Origin: Albidovulum marisflavi
GTDB lineage: Bacteria; Pseudomonadota; Alphaproteobacteria; Rhodobacterales; Rhodobacteraceae
Length of the DNA: 64,000 nucleotides
Direction of reading: 5' to 3'
Assembly: GCF_025751435.1 (NCBI RefSeq)
Contig: NZ_JAOWKY010000003.1
Span: 310,001-374,000 of the forward strand
The position numbers and the translations under genes are program-made. Positions 138 to 7,972 of the stretch are shown here, one piece after another (position 1 is the stretch's first letter; every line of letters begins with the position of its first letter). Below the pieces are notes generated by a model. It saw only the letters and a program-made list of their open reading frames with translations. It was not told the DNA's origin and did no database searches.

Positions 138-1304
138 ATGCCGCAAAGCCATGAGCCCACCGCAAGACCCACGGCCTGCATCGCGCTTGCCGACGGAACG
201 CTGTTCTTCGGCCATGGTTTCGGTGCGACAGGAGAGACGGTGGCAGAGCTGTGCTTCAACACGGCGATGACCGGCTATCAGGAAATCATGACCGATCCAT
301 CCTACGCGGGACAGGTCGTGACCTTCACCTTCCCCCATATCGGCAACGTCGGCGTCAATCCCGAGGATGACGAGGCAGCAGAACCCGTTGCGGCCGGGAT
401 GGTCGTCAAATGGGACCCGACCGCGCCCTCGAACTGGCGCGCGGCCGAAGAACTGACGGCTTGGCTCACGCGCCGCGGACGCATCGGGATCGGCGGGCTG
501 GACACGCGCCGTCTGACCCGCGCCATCCGGCAGCAGGGTGCGCCCCATGTGGCGCTGGCCCATGACCCGTCCGGTAACTTTGATGTCGCGGCGTTGGTCG
601 CCAAGGCCCGCGCCTGGTCGGGGCTTGTCGGACTCGATCTTGCCAAGGACGTGACCTGCGCACAGAGCTATCGCTGGGACGAAACCCGCTGGGCCTGGCC
701 CGAGGGCTATACGCGGCGGGAGGGCGACGGGCTTCGCGTCGTCGCGATCGATTACGGCGCAAAGCGGAATATCCTGCGCTGCCTCGCGTCGGCGGGCTGC
801 GACGTAACGGTCCTGCCGGCTTCCGCAACCGCCGAGGACGTGCTGGCACTGAACCCCGAGGGCGTTTTCCTTTCGAACGGTCCCGGTGACCCCGCGGCGA
901 CCGGCGAATACGCCGTGCCGATGATCCAGGGCGTTCTGAAGCACGATCTGCCGCTCTTCGGCATTTGCCTGGGCCACCAGATGCTTGCGCTTGCACTGGG
1001 TGCCAAGACGATAAAGATGAACCACGGCCATCACGGTGCCAACCACCCGGTCAAGGACATCGAATCCGGCAAGGTCGAAATCACGTCCATGAACCACGGC
1101 TTCGCGGTCGACAGCCAGACGCTGCCCTCTGGCGTGGTGGAAACGCATGTCAGCCTGTTCGATGGTTCGAACTGCGGCATCCGTATCGCGGATCGGCCCG
1201 TGTTCTCGGTACAGCATCACCCGGAAGCAAGCCCTGGCCCGCAGGACAGTTTCTACCTGTTCGAACGGTTCGCGCAGGCGATGCGGGCACGACGCGCCGC
1301 CTGA
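138..1304 (+). CDS. carA: Carbamoyl-phosphate synthase small subunit
   Basis: Glutaminase subunit of carbamoyl-phosphate synthase; it releases ammonia from glutamine for the CarB subunit in arginine and pyrimidine synthesis, in the cytoplasm. The first half is the CPSase small-chain domain (FNTAMTGYQEIMTDPSYAGQ). The second half is a class I glutamine amidotransferase with the nucleophile Cys in FGICLGHQ and the His/Glu pair in SVQHHPEASPGP. I chose ATG 138 because GGGAG lies 7 bases upstream; an in-frame TTG at 117 would add 7 residues. The product of 388 aa is normal for the family. carB is not in the window. The next gene lies about 60 bp downstream. Confidence 0.97.
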   Translation: MPQSHEPTARPTACIALADGTLFFGHGFGATGETVAELCFNTAMTGYQEIMTDPSYAGQVVTFTFPHIGNVGVNPEDDEAAEPVAAGMVVKWDPTAPSNWRAAEELTAWLTRRGRIGIGGLDTRRLTRAIRQQGAPHVALAHDPSGNFDVAALVAKARAWSGLVGLDLAKDVTCAQSYRWDETRWAWPEGYTRREGDGLRVVAIDYGAKRNILRCLASAGCDVTVLPASATAEDVLALNPEGVFLSNGPGDPAATGEYAVPMIQGVLKHDLPLFGICLGHQMLALALGAKTIKMNHGHHGANHPVKDIESGKVEITSMNHGFAVDSQTLPSGVVETHVSLFDGSNCGIRIADRPVFSVQHHPEASPGPQDSFYLFERFAQAMRARRAA

Positions 1305-1309
1305 TCCCG

Positions 1310-1325
1310 TTAACGCGGCGTTAAC
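1310..1325 (+). promoter_or_regulatory. Candidate CtrA-binding box
   Basis: The sequence TTAA-CGCGGCG-TTAAC matches the alphaproteobacterial CtrA consensus TTAA-N7-TTAAC exactly. It lies just after the carA stop and 42 bases before the preferred start of the glycosyltransferase gene. The same bases form a near-perfect 17-bp palindrome (GTTAACGC, G, GCGTTAAC, 1309–1325), so a short hairpin after carA is an alternative reading. Confidence 0.45.
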
Positions 1326-1366
1326 CGACCGCGTGCAGCATGGCTCTCGTTCCGGACGGAGAAGTC

Positions 1367-3370
1367 ATGCCGCGCTCTAAACGAAGGGTCGTATCCGTTG
1401 CGCGCCCCCCGCTGCCGATGGCCGTTTCCGACGGTCCGCGTGCACGCGAACGCCCAGGTCGACCGCCGCTGGGCCGTATCCTTCTTGAGCGCCGCGCGGT
1501 CGCGCCGGGAAACATGCTCAGGGCGCTTGCGCTGCAAGCCCGCCACGATGCGCGGCTTGGTGACATTCTGCTTTCGCGCCGCTGGGTCAGCGAACATGAC
1601 CTGACCAGGGCCTTGTGCGAACAATGGGGCACCGAAGCGGCAGATCTGTCTGCAGAGCCGCCGGACTCGCGGCTGGTGGACCTGGTGGGACCCGAACGGT
1701 GTTTGGCCGAGGCCGCCGTGCCCTGGCGCCGCATCGGGGCCGTCACCGTGATCGCGACGGCTCGGCCCGAAGACTTCGACAGGGTGCGGCGTGACATGGC
1801 GCCCCTCATCGGGTCCTGTGTCATGGCGATCGCCCCTGAATCAAAGATCCAGGCCGCCATCGCGGATTCGGGCGCGCGCAGCCTGGTCCGCAGGGCCGAA
1901 ACGCGCACGCCCGAACGTGAAAGCTGCCGCGCAATGGGATCGGCACGGGCCGCGCGGGCAGGATGGGTCGTCATCGCCTGCCTGGTCGGCCTTACGTCCT
2001 TCGCGCCGCGCGCGGTCTTTGTCGCATTTGCGCTCTGGGCGATCGTGACGCTTTTCCTGACCTCGGCGCTCAAGGCCGTCGCCTTCTGGGCGGAGTGGCG
2101 TGCCCTTCAGCGACCTCTGCCCCCTTCGGCTGGCCGATCGGACGCGAAGTTGCCCGTCGTATCCGTCATGGTCCCGCTGTTTCGCGAAGACGACATCGCG
2201 CCGCGCCTTGTCGCGCGTCTGGGGCGGATCGACTATCCGAGGGAACTGCTCGACATCGTGCTTGTGGTCGAGGAGGTCGACATTCACACACAGGCCGCAT
2301 TGTCGGCAGCCAAGCTGCCCACGTGGATGCGCGTCGTCCTGGTTCCCGACGGGCCGATCAGAACCAAGCCGCGCGCGTTGAACCTTGCGCTCGACTTCTG
2401 CCGGGGTCGGATCATCGGTGTCTGGGACGCGGAGGATGCGCCAGAACCGGGCCAGATCCGTCAGATCGTTCGCCGCTTCGCTGAAGCAGGGCCACGCGTC
2501 GGCTGCCTTCAGGGCGTTCTTGACTACTACAACGCTGACCACAACTGGCTGACGCGGTGCTTCACGATCGAGTACGCCGCATGGTTCCGCGCGATGTTGC
2601 CCGGTCTTGCGCGACTTGGGCTTGTCGTTCCCTTGGGCGGCACGACCGTCTTCTTTCGAAGGGAGGTTCTGGAGAACCTTGGGGGCTGGGATGCCCACAA
2701 CGTGACCGAGGACGCCGACCTGGGACTGCGGCTGGCGCGGCACGGCTATCGGACCGAGCTTGTGCCGACCGTGACGGAAGAGGAACCGAATTCGCGGGTC
2801 GTGCCGTGGATTCGTCAACGGTCACGCTGGCAGAAGGGCTACGCCATAACCTGGGCCGTGCACATGCGTGATCCGTCCCGGCTGTGGCGCGAGCTTGGCG
2901 CGAAGCGATTCATCGGGATCCAGATCCTGTTTCTGGGTTCGCTGTCCCAGGCTGTGCTGGCGCCGATCCTGTGGTCATTCTGGGCGCTGAGCCTGAAGCT
3001 GCCTCACCCTTTTGCACCGCTGTCTGACAGTGGATGGATGACAGCGCTATGGTCGCTTTTCTTGGCCAGCGAGGCGGTCAGCCTTGTGGTTGCGGTCTGG
3101 TCGCTGAGGGAGCCCAAGCACAGGCACCTGATCAAGTGGGTGCCGCTCCTGCATCTCTACGCGCCACTCGCCTCCCTTTCCTCGTACAAGGCGATCTACG
3201 AGGTGGTGGCAAAACCGTTCTACTGGGACAAGACCGCGCACGGCATCATCGACGGCGCGCCCGGCGCGGGTCCGGAGGCAACGCCGCGGGCCGAGGGCAC
3301 AAGGCCGATCCTGATCCGGCTGCGCGGGCGCGTTCCGACTCCAGCTTCGGCGCTAAAGGACATCGCCTGA
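1367..3370 (+). CDS. GspE-N/MshEN-domain family 2 glycosyltransferase, membrane-bound
   Basis: Probable inner-membrane processive or polysaccharide glycosyltransferase. Residues about 35–155 resemble the N-terminal domain of type II secretion ATPases (LGRILLERRAV, LGDILLSRRWVSEHDL), which in relatives can bind cyclic di-GMP. Hydrophobic segments follow at about 195–240. A GT2 catalytic domain then spans about 265–500, with the acidic pair in GVWDAEDAPEPG, TEDADLGLRLARHG, and QRSRW corresponding to the QxxRW motif of processive enzymes. More membrane segments lie near the C-terminus. ATG 1367 has GGAG close upstream and is preferred over ATG 1340. The gene stands alone, with a CtrA-like box in front. 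The sugar substrate cannot be read from the sequence. Confidence 0.85.
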   Translation: MPRSKRRVVSVARPPLPMAVSDGPRARERPGRPPLGRILLERRAVAPGNMLRALALQARHDARLGDILLSRRWVSEHDLTRALCEQWGTEAADLSAEPPDSRLVDLVGPERCLAEAAVPWRRIGAVTVIATARPEDFDRVRRDMAPLIGSCVMAIAPESKIQAAIADSGARSLVRRAETRTPERESCRAMGSARAARAGWVVIACLVGLTSFAPRAVFVAFALWAIVTLFLTSALKAVAFWAEWRALQRPLPPSAGRSDAKLPVVSVMVPLFREDDIAPRLVARLGRIDYPRELLDIVLVVEEVDIHTQAALSAAKLPTWMRVVLVPDGPIRTKPRALNLALDFCRGRIIGVWDAEDAPEPGQIRQIVRRFAEAGPRVGCLQGVLDYYNADHNWLTRCFTIEYAAWFRAMLPGLARLGLVVPLGGTTVFFRREVLENLGGWDAHNVTEDADLGLRLARHGYRTELVPTVTEEEPNSRVVPWIRQRSRWQKGYAITWAVHMRDPSRLWRELGAKRFIGIQILFLGSLSQAVLAPILWSFWALSLKLPHPFAPLSDSGWMTALWSLFLASEAVSLVVAVWSLREPKHRHLIKWVPLLHLYAPLASLSSYKAIYEVVAKPFYWDKTAHGIIDGAPGAGPEATPRAEGTRPILIRLRGRVPTPASALKDIA

Positions 3371-3388: not shown

Positions 3389-4549
3389 TCAGGCCGCGTG
3401 GCTGATCAGGCGGCGCGCTTCCTCGGCGATCCAGCTTTCCTCATCGGCGGGATGGATCAGCGCCATGATCGGGGATCCCGGTCTATCCAGCCGGCGCGCG
3501 CCTGCGGCGTTGTTCTCGGCATCGTAGGCAAGCCCCATGTAGGCAAGACCGTCAAGGATGCCCGCCCGAACACGGGCCGAGTTTTCACCAATTCCGCCCG
3601 TGAAGACGACCGCATCGCAGCCGCCCATGTCGGCGATCATCGCGCCCGCGTGGTGCACGGCCCAGTGGACGAAGTGATCGAGCGCAAAGGTGGCCTTTGC
3701 AGTCTCGGCGCGCTCAAGAACTCGCATGTCGCTGGCTCCGCCCAGCCCCTTGAGGCCGCTTTCGCGATTGAGAATCTGGGCCGCCCGCTCGATCCCGACG
3801 CGGCGGGCGAGATCCAGCACGGCGTTTCCGTCGATCTCCCCCGTGCGGGTTCCCATCGTCAGCCCGCCAAGTGGCGAATACCCCATGGTGGTCGCCGCCG
3901 ACCGCCCGTCAAGAATGGCGCACAGGCTTGCCCCGTTCCCCAGATGCGCCGCCAACAGACGGCGGGGCAGCTGAACGCCACTCGCCGAAGGCAGGCGCGC
4001 GGCAAGGCTTGCATAGGAAAGACCGTGAAAGCCGTAGCGACGGATGCCGCGCGTTTCCGGAAGGTCGGGCAGGGCATAGCGCCAGCCGATCTCCGGGATG
4101 GTCGCGTGAAAGGCGGTGTCGAAGCAGGCGACCTGACGCAGGTTCGGCCAGGCGCGCCCGATGGCAGCGATGACGGCAAGGGCGGGCGGGTTGTGCAGCG
4201 GGGCAAGCGCCGCCGCCGCCCGAGCGCGCGCAAGCACATCTGGCGTCAGCTCGCACGAAGCTGTCAAGTCGGGCCCACCGTGCACCACCCGATGCGCCGC
4301 CGCGCCAAGGGTCGCCGGGTCGAAACCGTCAGCGCGCGCCGCGTCAAGCAGAGCGGACAGCGCGCCGGCATGATCGGCCAGCGCCGCCGTCCGCGATTGC
4401 CCCCGCAAGACAAGCTGCGAGGTCCCGCCGATCTCGGCGGCGACGCCGGTGAAAAGCGTTGCTCCGCTGCTGTCGAAAATGCGGATCTTCAGGGACGAAG
4501 ACCCGGCGTTCGCGACCAGGATCGGCGCCTTCGCCGGGGCTTCGCGCAT
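3389..4549 (-). CDS. ackA: Acetate kinase
   Basis: Transfers phosphate between acetyl phosphate and ADP/ATP in the cytoplasm. Acetokinase family motifs are complete: VANAGSSSLK at the N-terminus, HRVVHGG, AHLGNGAS, the TMGYSPLGGLTMGTRTGEID block, and FTGGIGENS near the C-terminus. The 386-aa length is slightly short for the family. Its ATG lies 3 bases after the xsc stop, so the two genes are almost certainly cotranscribed and translationally coupled. In this setting it probably turns the acetyl phosphate made by Xsc into acetate plus ATP. The more usual partner of Xsc is phosphotransacetylase, which is absent here. Confidence 0.95.
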   Translation of the reverse strand: MREAPAKAPILVANAGSSSLKIRIFDSSGATLFTGVAAEIGGTSQLVLRGQSRTAALADHAGALSALLDAARADGFDPATLGAAAHRVVHGGPDLTASCELTPDVLARARAAAALAPLHNPPALAVIAAIGRAWPNLRQVACFDTAFHATIPEIGWRYALPDLPETRGIRRYGFHGLSYASLAARLPSASGVQLPRRLLAAHLGNGASLCAILDGRSAATTMGYSPLGGLTMGTRTGEIDGNAVLDLARRVGIERAAQILNRESGLKGLGGASDMRVLERAETAKATFALDHFVHWAVHHAGAMIADMGGCDAVVFTGGIGENSARVRAGILDGLAYMGLAYDAENNAAGARRLDRPGSPIMALIHPADEESWIAEEARRLISHAA

Positions 4550-4552
4550 GGG

Positions 4553-6328
4553 TCAGACCTGCTGAGGGCGCATGTCGGCTGCGTCGATGCCAGCGACCTC
4601 GACGGGCTTCTTCATCGCGTCGCGCCGGAACGGCTCGCCCAGCTCCTGGTTGATCATCGCCTCGATCAGCGTTGTCTTGCCATGTTTCATCTGGTCCTCG
4701 ATCGCTTTTGAAAGTGCCGCGGTCAGTTCCTCCATCGTCCGCGCAACGACGCCCTGAAGTCCGCAGGCCGTGGCGATACCGGCATAGGAAACCTTTACGT
4801 CCAGCTCGGTGCCGACGAAGTTGTCGTCGTACCAAAGGGTCGAGTTGCGCTTTTCCGCGCCCCACTGGTAGTTGCGGAAGACGATCTGGGTAATCGCCGG
4901 CCACTCCTCGCGGCCGATGGCGGTCAGTTCCGTCACCGCGATGCCGAAGGCGCCGTCACCCGAAAAGCCCACGACTGGAACGTCGGGGCAGCCGATCTTG
5001 GCGCCGACGACCGAAGGCAGGCCGTAGCCGCAGGGGCCAAACAGGCCGGGGGCAAGATACTTCCGTCCCTGTTCGAACGACGGATAGGCGTTGCCGATGG
5101 CGCAGTTGTTGCCAATGTCGGAAGAGATGATCGCATCTTTCGGCAGTGCGGACTGGATCGCCCGCCAGGCCATGCGCGGGGACATCCAGTCGGGCTTCGC
5201 CGACCGCGCGCGCTGGTTCCAGGTGGTGCCGGGATCGTCGTCTTCGTGATCCATCGAGGAAAGCTGCTGGGCCCAGGCCGATTTGGTGGTCGCGATCAGG
5301 TCCAACCGGGACTGGCGCCCTTCGTCGCCCGCCGCCGGCGTCAGCCTGTCAAGGATCGCTGTCGCAACCTTCCTGGCATCGCCGACGATGCCGACCGTCA
5401 CCGGCTTGGTCAGCCCGATGCGGTCTGGGTTGATGTCGACCTGGATGATCTTGGCTTCGCGCGGCCAGTAGTCGATGCCGTAGCCCGGCAGAGTCGAGAA
5501 CGGGTTCAGCCGCGTGCCCAGGCACAGGACCACATCGGCCTTGGCGATCAGTTCCATGGCGGCCTTGGATCCGTTGTAACCCAGCGGGCCTGCATGCAGC
5601 GGGTGGGATCCCGGGAAGGCGTCATTGTGCTGATAGCCGCAGCAAACCGGGGCGGAAAGCCGCTCGGCCAGCGCCTTGGACGCCGGAATCGCGCCGCCGA
5701 TGACGACGCCCGCGCCGTTCAGGATCACCGGGAAGCGCGCGTTCGACAGAAGCTCTGCCGCGCGATCAAGCGCGTCCTCGCCGCCCGCCGGGCGCTCGAA
5801 ATCGACAATGGCGGGCAGGGCGATATCAACGACTTGGGTGAAGTAATCGCGCGGCATGTTGATCTGCGCAGGGGCGCTGTTGCGCTTGGCCTGCATGATG
5901 ACGCGGTTCAGAACCTCGGCCACGCGGGTCGGATCGCGCACCTCTTCCTGGTAGCAGACCATGTCCTTGAAGGCCGCCATCTGCTCGACCTCCTGGAAGC
6001 CGCCCTGGCCAATGGTCTTGTTGGCCGCCTGCGGCGTCACAAGCAAAAGCGGCGTGTGGTTCCAGTAGGCGGTCTTCACCGCGGTGACGAAGTTGGTGAT
6101 GCCGGGCCCGTTCTGGGCGATCATCATGCTCATCTTGCCGGTGGCGCGGGTGTAGCCATCGGCCATCATCCCGCCCGACCCTTCGTGCGCGCAGTCCCAG
6201 AAGGTGATGCCCGCCTTGGGGAAAAGGTCGGAGATCGGCATGAAGGCCGAGCCGATGATGCCGAAAGCATGTTCGATCCCGTGCATCTGAAGCACTTTGA
6301 CGAAGGCTTCCTCGGTGGTCATCTTCAT
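4553..6328 (-). CDS. xsc: Sulfoacetaldehyde acetyltransferase
   Basis: Thiamine-diphosphate enzyme that converts sulfoacetaldehyde and phosphate to acetyl phosphate and sulfite, the desulfonation step of taurine and related C2 sulfonate breakdown. The N-terminal PYR domain has FGIIGSAFMPISDL and the activating Glu in HEGSGGMMADGYTRATG. The C-terminal PP domain has the GDGAFGIAVTEL...NYQWGAEK magnesium/ThDP motif. The length (591 aa) and overall sequence match Xsc rather than acetolactate synthase. GGAG precedes ATG 6328. It heads the xsc–ackA operon and is divergent from a MocR regulator at 6488, with candidate operator repeats between them. Confidence 0.96.
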   Translation of the reverse strand: MKMTTEEAFVKVLQMHGIEHAFGIIGSAFMPISDLFPKAGITFWDCAHEGSGGMMADGYTRATGKMSMMIAQNGPGITNFVTAVKTAYWNHTPLLLVTPQAANKTIGQGGFQEVEQMAAFKDMVCYQEEVRDPTRVAEVLNRVIMQAKRNSAPAQINMPRDYFTQVVDIALPAIVDFERPAGGEDALDRAAELLSNARFPVILNGAGVVIGGAIPASKALAERLSAPVCCGYQHNDAFPGSHPLHAGPLGYNGSKAAMELIAKADVVLCLGTRLNPFSTLPGYGIDYWPREAKIIQVDINPDRIGLTKPVTVGIVGDARKVATAILDRLTPAAGDEGRQSRLDLIATTKSAWAQQLSSMDHEDDDPGTTWNQRARSAKPDWMSPRMAWRAIQSALPKDAIISSDIGNNCAIGNAYPSFEQGRKYLAPGLFGPCGYGLPSVVGAKIGCPDVPVVGFSGDGAFGIAVTELTAIGREEWPAITQIVFRNYQWGAEKRNSTLWYDDNFVGTELDVKVSYAGIATACGLQGVVARTMEELTAALSKAIEDQMKHGKTTLIEAMINQELGEPFRRDAMKKPVEVAGIDAADMRPQQV

Positions 6329-6487: not shown

Positions 6488-7972
6488 ATGTCCTCGGCGG
6501 ACCGCATCGCGGCGGAAATGTTCTTTGTGGATCGTCGGGATGGCCGGACGCTGCAGATGCAGTTGGCGACTTCGATCATCGCGACGATTCTCGACACGCG
6601 CGCGGGCGCGGGAACGCGCATGCCCTCAAGCCGCAAGCTTGCTGAATATCTGGGCGTTTCCCGGCTGACCGTGACGCTGGTGTACCAGGAGCTTGTGGCC
6701 CGCGGATACCTGGACGCGTTGCCGCGGTCCGGTTTCGTGGTGTCCGAGCGTGCGCCGCAAAGGCGCATCGACCAGCCCCCGAGGTCGCGTCCGACCCGTG
6801 AGGTGGATTGGAGTGAATGGCTTCCGCGCAGGCTGGCGGCGCGTCGGCAGATCCTGAAGCCGCATAACTGGCGCAGCTACGACTTTCCGTTCGTATATGG
6901 CCAGGTGGATCCCAGGCTGTTCGACCATAGCGCCTGGCGCGACTGCGCCCGCCGCGCGCTTGGCACGCGTGACTTCACGGGACTGGCCGACGATCAGCTG
7001 ACGCAGGACGACCCGGTCCTTGTCGACTACATCCGCAAGAACACGCTGCCCCGTCGGGGCATACGCGCCGCCGCGGACGAAGTCCTTATCACGCTGGGCG
7101 CTCAGAATGCCCTTTGGATCGCAGTGCAACTGCTGGCGCGGTCGGATCGCACCGCTGCCGTCGAGGATCCGGGCTTCCCGGATTTCGCCGAGGCGCTGCG
7201 CTATGCCCGCATGCCGATCGAGTACGTGCCCGTGGACGGGCAGGGGCTTGATCCAGCGGCGCTGTCGGACCGGGTGGGGCTGGTCATCGCGACGCCCAGC
7301 CACAACATCCCCACAGGCGCGACGCTTCCGCGCGCGCGCCGGCTTGATCTTCTGCGGCGCGCGGATGCGCAGGATTTCCTGGTCATTGAGGACGATTACG
7401 AATTTGAGATGAGCTTTCTTGAGCCCCCTTCGCCGGCGCTGAAGTCGCAGGATGCAGGGGGACGCGTGATCTACATCGGAAGCTTCTCGAAGTCGCTCTT
7501 TCCCGGACTGCGGATCGGCTACATGGTGGCCCCGCCAGAGTTCATCCGGGAGGCGCGCGCGCTGCGCGCCATGATGTTGCGCCACGCGCCCGGCCACATG
7601 CAGCGCGTCACGGGCTACTTTCTGGCGCTTGGTCATTACGATGCCCATGTCGTACGCCTGCGCCAGACCTTCCGCCGCAGGCGCGAGGCAATGGTCGCGG
7701 CGCTGGAGAGAACCGATTTCGAGATTCTGGGCGCTGCGCGGCACGGTGGGTCCAGCCTGTGGGTCGCGGCCCCGGAAGGCATCGATAGCGGATTGTTGAA
7801 CCAGCGGTTCAGCGAACAGGGGGTGCTGGTGGAGCCTGGCCATCCGTTCTTTGCCGAACCGCCCGAGCCCTGTCGCTATTTCCGCATGGGCTATTCCTCG
7901 ATCGACGAGGGGCGGATCGCCCAGGGGGTCGCGCGGATGCAGTCATGCTTGACCTCGGCGCTTGCCCGGTAG
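6488..7972 (+). CDS. MocR/TauR-like PLP-dependent transcriptional regulator (copy 1)
   Basis: GntR-family regulator of the MocR subfamily. Residues about 20–85 are a winged helix (MPSSRKLAEYLGVSRLTVTLVYQEL). From about 125 to the end is an aminotransferase fold I domain with IEDDYEFEMSF and the PLP-lysine motif GSFSKSLFPGLRIGY. ATG 6488 begins MSSADRIAAEMFF; the open frame runs much further upstream, but that part is antisense to xsc. Product 494 aa. It is divergent from xsc–ackA and is the obvious candidate regulator of that operon, by analogy with TauR of Rhodobacter capsulatus, an activator of taurine genes. It is clearly paralogous to the MocR at 30216. It converges on the next LysR gene. 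Confidence 0.92.
   Translation: MSSADRIAAEMFFVDRRDGRTLQMQLATSIIATILDTRAGAGTRMPSSRKLAEYLGVSRLTVTLVYQELVARGYLDALPRSGFVVSERAPQRRIDQPPRSRPTREVDWSEWLPRRLAARRQILKPHNWRSYDFPFVYGQVDPRLFDHSAWRDCARRALGTRDFTGLADDQLTQDDPVLVDYIRKNTLPRRGIRAAADEVLITLGAQNALWIAVQLLARSDRTAAVEDPGFPDFAEALRYARMPIEYVPVDGQGLDPAALSDRVGLVIATPSHNIPTGATLPRARRLDLLRRADAQDFLVIEDDYEFEMSFLEPPSPALKSQDAGGRVIYIGSFSKSLFPGLRIGYMVAPPEFIREARALRAMMLRHAPGHMQRVTGYFLALGHYDAHVVRLRQTFRRRREAMVAALERTDFEILGAARHGGSSLWVAAPEGIDSGLLNQRFSEQGVLVEPGHPFFAEPPEPCRYFRMGYSSIDEGRIAQGVARMQSCLTSALAR

Follow-up and report, generated by a model that had tools for sequence, protein, structure and literature searches.

We analysed 64,000 nucleotides of the genome of Albidovulum marisflavi (family Rhodobacteraceae; RefSeq assembly GCF_025751435.1, contig NZ_JAOWKY010000003.1, positions 310,001 to 374,000 of the forward strand), a stretch that is called the window in the following and in which position 1 is the first letter. 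Close to its beginning carA is followed by a gene of 2 kb on the same strand, which encodes a membrane glycosyltransferase of family 2 (GT2) carrying an N-terminal MshEN domain, a domain of the cyclic di-GMP (c-di-GMP)-binding type (Table 1). Between the carA stop codon (1304) and this gene lies the sequence GTTAACGCGGCGTTAAC (1309-1325), and within it TTAACGCGGCGTTAAC matches the pattern TTAA-N7-TTAAC at 1310-1325 of the forward strand, 41 nt before the ATG at 1367. The exact match to the consensus of the regulator CtrA that the original prediction had placed before this gene was thus confirmed. The opposite strand matches as well (1309-1324), while 0.02 matches are expected per window and two matches occurred in none of 100 shuffles. 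The box at 1309-1325 also fits TTAAC-N5-GTTAAC, the form of the CtrA site given for Dinoroseobacter shibae (PMC7232146). In the 3-kb locus, GANTC sites are not enriched (7 found, 14.1 expected).

Table 1. Features of the carA-glycosyltransferase locus in the window; residues are counted from the ATG at 1340
Feature	Coordinates	Strand	Basis
carA, carbamoyl-phosphate synthase small subunit, upstream neighbour	138..1304	+	open reading frame; name by eye and conserved matches
Putative CtrA full site GTTAAC-N5-GTTAAC (TTAA-N7-TTAAC), near-palindromic	1309..1325	+	pattern match and conservation
-10-like element CAGCAT (nAnnnT)	1336..1341	+	alignment of loci on the box
Shine-Dalgarno-like GGAGAAG	1358..1364	+	read from sequence
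MshEN-GT2 membrane glycosyltransferase gene	1367..3370	+	667 aa from ATG 1367; 676 aa from ATG 1340
MshEN 53-residue c-di-GMP-binding-type region: two 24-residue motifs and a 5-residue spacer	1466..1624 (residues 43-95)	+	NF053729
Remainder of the MshEN domain	1625..1864 (residues 96-175)	+	PF05157 match; superposition on MshE 5htl
Two probable membrane helices ahead of the catalytic domain	1940..2110 (residues about 201-257)	+	model; hydrophobicity by eye
GT2 catalytic domain	2156..2839 (residues 273-500)	+	PF13641, 112.8 bits
C-terminal membrane/interface helices	2900..3211 (residues about 521-624)	+	model; membrane nature by eye

The box is conserved and belongs to the glycosyltransferase gene

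Matches to the glycosyltransferase came from 276 of the 296 family genomes, nearly every one of a different genus; a few of these matches are weak and may represent other GT2 proteins. Missing conservation in close relatives had been named by the original prediction as a finding that would speak against it; among all 148 distinct orthologous loci of the family (91 + 40 + 12 + 5, that of the window being one of them), 136 carry the exact box and 10 a box with one mismatch, leaving two loci without it (L138 and L194; L numbers designate loci and G numbers genomes). The core set of 91 was taken from 110 loci (L019-L128, the window's own being L099) after setting aside L077 and L080, which have short upstream regions (L080 has the box), the partial loci L125, L126, and L127, and 14 duplicates. 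Within 330 bp upstream of codon 44, 85 of these 91 loci carry the exact box and the other six a box with one mismatch, compared to a mean of 0.11 exact boxes and a largest value of 2 in 100 dinucleotide shuffles of the same regions. Pairs of TTAA at other spacings from 0 to 20 are found in at most 4 of the 91 loci, and nine other four-letter words at a spacing of 7 in at most 9 (CCGG). The remainder of the core loci holds two boxes in 632,716 bp, none lies in the 90 regions downstream of the gene, and one in the 72 regions upstream of carA.

The same picture is seen beyond the core set. A second set from 40 more distant genera (L167-L206: 40 consecutive rows without a locus from G200 down, among the matches listed, the weakest matches lying outside the sample) shares no locus with the core set and contains 35 exact boxes, four with one mismatch and one locus without a box (L194); in L183 and L206 the exact box was located after re-anchoring on the carA stop codon. 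Seventeen further distinct family loci add 16 exact boxes. Twelve of them come from L144-L166 (23 loci, 21 exact and two with one mismatch), of which 11 repeat the core set and the other 12 are all exact; among the remaining loci, L130, L131, and L134 repeat the core set, L132, L133, L136, and L137 are exact, and L138 has none. Conservation extends down to genera with about 45-54% protein identity. Across the 85 exact core loci the TTAA words are constant and each is mostly followed by C, while neither the seven bases of the spacer nor the flanking sequences are fixed. Some loci (L177/L256, L123, L124, and L022) carry overlapping boxes in register at steps of 11 bp, two or, in L177/L256, three of them, which suggests arrays of CtrA sites.

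carA is present in 101 of the 110 loci L019-L128, and the box follows its stop codon at a median distance of 38.5 bp. An assignment of the box to carA was rejected. Six carA loci lack the glycosyltransferase next to carA (L129 and L135 and L139-L142, three of the family and three, L140-L142, of other families; L143 is no true carA and was excluded); the 400 bp after their carA contain no exact box, and homologues of the glycosyltransferase sit elsewhere in G045 and G040. Where carA is distant, the box stays near the glycosyltransferase gene, 628 bp (L040) and 569 bp (L136) after the carA stop codon, and it remains in the 5 of the 85 exact-box loci from which carA is absent. Among 144 genomes searched in the class, 17 outside the family have a homologue at E values up to 1e-30; these loci (L258-L274) have no carA in the fetched stretch and no exact upstream box, two having one with one mismatch, and a diverged paralogue within the family (L277) is likewise without a box. 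From these sequences, the box seems to have been gained together with the position next to carA.

The alignment of the 85 loci on the box start revealed a second, weaker conservation peak at +28 (A, 66%) and +32 (T, 62%). Allowing a one-base shift, the A...T pair at +27/+28 occurs in 88% of the 85 loci (median at other offsets 10.6%) and in 63% of 35 further loci (10% at other offsets). In CtrA-activated promoters the CtrA box covers the -35 position ahead of a -10 element, and a weak -10 at fixed distance from the box thus corresponds to this layout. A scan with the sigma-70 consensus gave nothing at the box, as expected of a weak -10. The start of the longest open reading frame, ATG 1340, was rejected since it overlaps the -10-like CAGCAT, and translation more likely begins at the ATG at 1367 behind GGAGAAG; the median distance from box end to chosen start is 46 nt in the orthologues.

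CtrA and further boxes in the genome

The 3.82-Mb genome (10 contigs) has a gene for a Rhodobacterales-type CtrA (NF045991, 434.6 bits, cut-off 350) and contains six exact TTAA-N7-TTAA sites, the one of the glycosyltransferase among them. Two adjoin a cckA-like gene: one (L211) lies in the first part of its open reading frame, judged by eye to be ahead of the true start, the best models for this cut frame being CckA of other families, below their cut-offs; the other (L212) lies between the end of the cckA-like gene and recA, which is over its cut-off. Another site separates an mltG gene from a terminase gene (Terminase_6N) in a locus (L209) that is read as a GTA-like cluster, i.e., one resembling gene transfer agent (GTA) genes. 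A site in L207/L213 follows regB and precedes a gene for a 525-residue protein with PAS domain (L213 246-1823), which we take to be perhaps DivL in the kinase-less form of Rhodobacterales. The last one (L208; G000:C2:954465-954479) is placed between divergent genes for an MltB-type lytic transglycosylase and a single-domain response regulator, whose best named model is CpdR, below cut-off; by their position, both genes are possible CtrA targets. For comparison, predicted CtrA sites of D. shibae include those of ctrA, cckA, gafA and GTA-associated genes, lexA, and flagellar genes (PMC6473078).

CtrA and the glycosyltransferase gene tend to occur together. A protein over the CtrA cut-off is encoded in all of 22 genomes with the gene, which we chose from the family matches and which are mostly assemblies with few contigs, in 5 of 20 genomes that have no match, and in 4 of 5 whose match is weak (Fisher's exact test 1.6e-7 for 22 versus 20; 1.4e-6 if weak matches are counted as lacking the gene). 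This co-occurrence is supportive only, and incompleteness of genomes may explain some absences. Sixteen of the family genomes compared here are without a protein over the Rhodobacterales CtrA cut-off (G034, G070, G099, G128, G138, G145, G168, G190, G192, G197, G223, G230, G241, G243, G293, and G325); the glycosyltransferase, too, is unmatched in fifteen of these, and its match in G197 is weak.

Domains and predicted fold of the glycosyltransferase

The domain order of the protein is MshEN-membrane-GT2-membrane. What the original prediction had called a GspE-N domain fused to a glycosyltransferase corresponds to the Pfam family MshEN (PF05157, 36.8 bits, cut-off 23.1) joined to GT2 families that score well over their cut-offs, and the QxxRW motif it had noticed is present as QRSRW (residues 493-497). 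Together with DAED (363-366) and TED (456-458) this motif is invariant or nearly so in the orthologues. The signatures of processive-type GT2 enzymes are thereby present (DxD-like motif, TED, QxxRW, GT-A fold, and membrane helices), by which processivity is predicted at most. An AlphaFold2 model computed from an alignment of 54 sequences reached a mean predicted local distance difference test score (pLDDT) of 90.7 and a predicted template modelling score (pTM) of 0.90; 32 has to be added to its residue numbers to obtain those used here (model helices 169-189, 191-225, and 489-592). In a second look at Foldseek matches with VIA-align, model residues 193-594 superposed on PcManGT (Z 27.8), residues 186-615 on BcsA with c-di-GMP (4p00; Z 23.4, root-mean-square deviation 3.4, 396 aligned) and on hyaluronan synthase (8snc; Z 23.0), and residues 9-146 on c-di-GMP-bound MshE (5htl; Z 17.2, root-mean-square deviation 2.4, 137 aligned, 27% identity). 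According to the model, the protein is a GT2 membrane enzyme of the cellulose- and hyaluronan-synthase fold with an N-terminal MshEN domain, and it probably builds a surface sugar chain. The earlier suggestion of a polysaccharide enzyme is supported to this extent by fold and motifs.

In its composition the protein resembles NfrB of Escherichia coli, a c-di-GMP-activated GT2-MshEN synthase of the phage N4 receptor pathway (PMC8669469), as both unite a GT2 domain with DxD-like, TED, and QxxRW motifs, membrane helices, and an MshEN domain in one protein. Positions 474-580 of the NfrB model (NF008411) are matched by the N-terminus of the window protein. However, the order is reversed, since the MshEN domain comes first here and NfrB has an N-terminal glycosyltransferase and a C-terminal MshEN domain; the score of 39.2 bits is far below the equivalog cut-off of 1170, and the neighbours are carA and an acetate-kinase-like open reading frame (named by eye) instead of nfrA/ybcH as in the NfrB operon, nfrA not having been sought elsewhere in the genome. 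The protein is a new variant of the MshEN-GT2 arrangement. With the MshEN domains of MshE and PilB it shares the double motif of 24+5+24 residues and the fold (PMC5013675; PDB 5htl), but the domain is joined to a glycosyltransferase instead of an ATPase, and the Arg of the first motif is Pro in most orthologues. The catalytic and membrane part has the fold of BcsA and hyaluronan synthases; unlike in BcsA, no PilZ is found among the Pfam matches and the model TIGR03030 gives 41.8 bits, below its cut-off of 699.1, and the window protein presumably has fewer membrane helices than BcsA. It also differs from PgaC (TIGR03937, 53.2 bits, below the cut-off of 422.3).

Proposed regulation, rival explanations, and implications

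The most probable explanation of these comparisons, taken as a whole, is that CtrA activates, from the box at -35, a promoter that serves the glycosyltransferase gene independently of carA. Phosphorylated CtrA would recruit RNA polymerase to the weak -10 at 1336-1341, transcription would start near 1348, and translation would begin at the ATG at 1367. The product would be located in the inner membrane, where its GT2 domain would build, and may export, a glycan, and the N-terminal MshEN domain would let c-di-GMP raise the enzyme activity. The enzyme would be made in the CtrA-active, motile state and be switched on as c-di-GMP rises at surface contact. As an effect of c-di-GMP on CckA, and hence on the phosphorylation of CtrA, is reported (PMC9756655), the two inputs would probably be sequential. 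The earlier proposal of a dual control thus stands in different degrees for its two parts: transcriptional control by CtrA is strongly supported by comparison, i.e., by the conservation of the box, the fixed -10, the link to the gene, and the CtrA encoded in the genome, and control by the second messenger is plausible in view of NF053729 and the fold, the published double motif not being found in the window protein.

Several findings weigh against a CtrA-activated promoter of this kind. L194 has no box; L138 has none either (best candidate with two mismatches), and its protein is without the start of the MshEN region. The six exact boxes of the genome compare to 13 for a reversed-pattern control, so that a general enrichment was rejected and the case rests on the genes having the box and on its conservation. 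Five genomes encode CtrA and have no match to the glycosyltransferase gene. In the carA tree, whose resolution is poor, the starred branches require no more than one change, leaving independence of the co-occurrence unsupported; an independent co-loss of CtrA and the gene was set aside for this reason. A terminator search between carA and the glycosyltransferase gene gave no hit, so that read-through into the gene is possible. The literature searched (PMC4046655, PMC7232146, PMC6473078, PMC8116508, PMC12363192, PMC9426580, PMC9552610, and the preprint PMC13420450) holds no data on CtrA binding, expression, or enzyme activity for this gene, and where it treats CtrA in the family it names no glycosyltransferase target, supplementary tables and several primary regulon papers lying outside the search. 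CtrA also represses some promoters, and the site might act as a repressor or roadblock that insulates the gene from carA read-through or silences it as long as CtrA is phosphorylated; the position of the site directly between carA and the gene and the missing terminator fit with this. Its location at -35 relative to a conserved -10 and its persistence where carA lies about 0.6 kb away (L040, L136) or is not in the locus argue against such a role, which we consider improbable. Another regulator such as a protein of the FNR/Dnr type could read the palindromic GTTAAC pair, since in D. shibae the Dnr/Fnr site TTAAC-N4-GTCAA shares a half-site with the CtrA site (PMC7232146). Given that the spacing of seven is that of CtrA in nearly all core loci, other spacings being rare, and that sites of the same form adjoin cckA-like, recA, and GTA-like genes in this genome, we judge this very improbable. 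Chance or shared DNA ancestry without selection might be invoked for one of six sites in 3.8 Mb that are no more numerous than in the reversed control. A chance box was rejected by the exact matches in the core set compared to the shuffles, and as the TTAA words do not vary, unlike spacer and flanks, and conservation reaches distantly related genera, the probability of this explanation is close to nil.

The c-di-GMP part of the CtrA promoter model depends on the state of the MshEN domain. The MshE-related c-di-GMP model NF053729 is matched by the window protein above its cut-off (44.9 bits, cut-off 38), by all 54 aligned members at E values up to 0.001, and above the cut-off by 9 of 10 orthologues scanned singly (L028 is not listed at E 1e-8). 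The strict binding motif RLGxx(LVI)(LVI)xxG(LVI)(LVI)xxxxLxxxLxxQ occurs twice in MshEN domains, and a relaxed form was published as well (PMC5013675). Among 92 protein rows (the window protein being present twice, as WIN and L099, and L096 and L076 having short reading frames) several features oppose binding. The strict second motif occurs in none, largely since its position 11 is Trp or Met, and the relaxed form is present in both motifs of 18 rows, the window protein not being among them; in the latter, position 10 of each motif is Arg in place of Gly. The Arg of the first motif is Pro in 74 rows and its Gln is Arg in 46. Moreover, L183, L190, and L206 apparently lack the 53-residue half, with carA linkage kept and the box exact (one mismatch in L190). 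Based on these motif changes and losses, the domain may be degenerate here and serve as a structural or protein-docking module in an enzyme controlled by transcription only, a possibility to which we give considerable but lesser weight; against it stand the NF053729 scores, the superposition on c-di-GMP-bound MshE, and the second motif, which is mostly kept (R 70, L 67, G 81, L 85, L 80, and Q 83 of 92 rows). As the published motifs are not found in the window protein, only an MshEN-like domain is claimed. Control of the enzyme by c-di-GMP is nevertheless plausible and, judging from NF053729 and the modelled fold, somewhat favoured. L183, L190, and L206 would be natural controls for c-di-GMP dependence.

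The regulon of CtrA in Rhodobacteraceae is described to comprise flagella, GTA, competence, and c-di-GMP genes (PMC4046655, PMC6473078, PMC7232146), and pili and quorum sensing are named among its targets as well. The locus described here agrees with this regulon in the form of the site, and boxes of this kind also adjoin a cckA-like gene, recA, and a terminase gene in the genome. It would differ in encoding an envelope enzyme, none of the targets named in the literature searched being a glycosyltransferase. By comparison of sequences, the gene probably belongs to the core of the CtrA regulon and is not named in that literature. In Caulobacter, HfsJ is a c-di-GMP-activated holdfast glycosyltransferase with homologues conserved in Caulobacterales, and CtrA binds the promoter of the inhibitor gene hfiA (PMC9980756). 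Like HfsJ, the protein would be a c-di-GMP-switched glycosyltransferase in a CtrA-timed attachment programme, as a functional analogue only. Provided that c-di-GMP is an activator of the enzyme as well, the protein would be made in one phase and activated in the next, as with the Caulobacter holdfast. Rhodobacterales with polar adhesins are reported to have neither of the known clusters, hfs and upp, and little is known about how their adhesins are made (PMC9980756). The gene is a good candidate for making these adhesins, a polar or adhesive product being hypothetical. One may even speculate, with much reservation, that it is the common CtrA-timed, c-di-GMP-gated synthase of an attachment, possibly polar, polysaccharide in Rhodobacteraceae and a counterpart of the Caulobacter holdfast step, in which a MshEN-GT2 enzyme that has neither carA linkage nor box elsewhere in the class would have gained a CtrA promoter next to carA in the family ancestor. 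Should a putative surface-glycan synthase have a CtrA-type promoter in nearly the whole family, the motile/sessile programme of the family would be tied to one enzyme and one promoter, both accessible to tests in model strains. The gene is a strong, testable candidate core CtrA target.

Downstream of the glycosyltransferase gene, the opposite strand (3389-6328) carries the acetate-kinase-like open reading frame and one for a thiamine diphosphate (ThDP)-enzyme-like protein resembling sulfoacetaldehyde acetyltransferase of taurine breakdown, and beyond these an open reading frame for a MocR-like regulator ends at 7972 on the forward strand, all of them named by eye.

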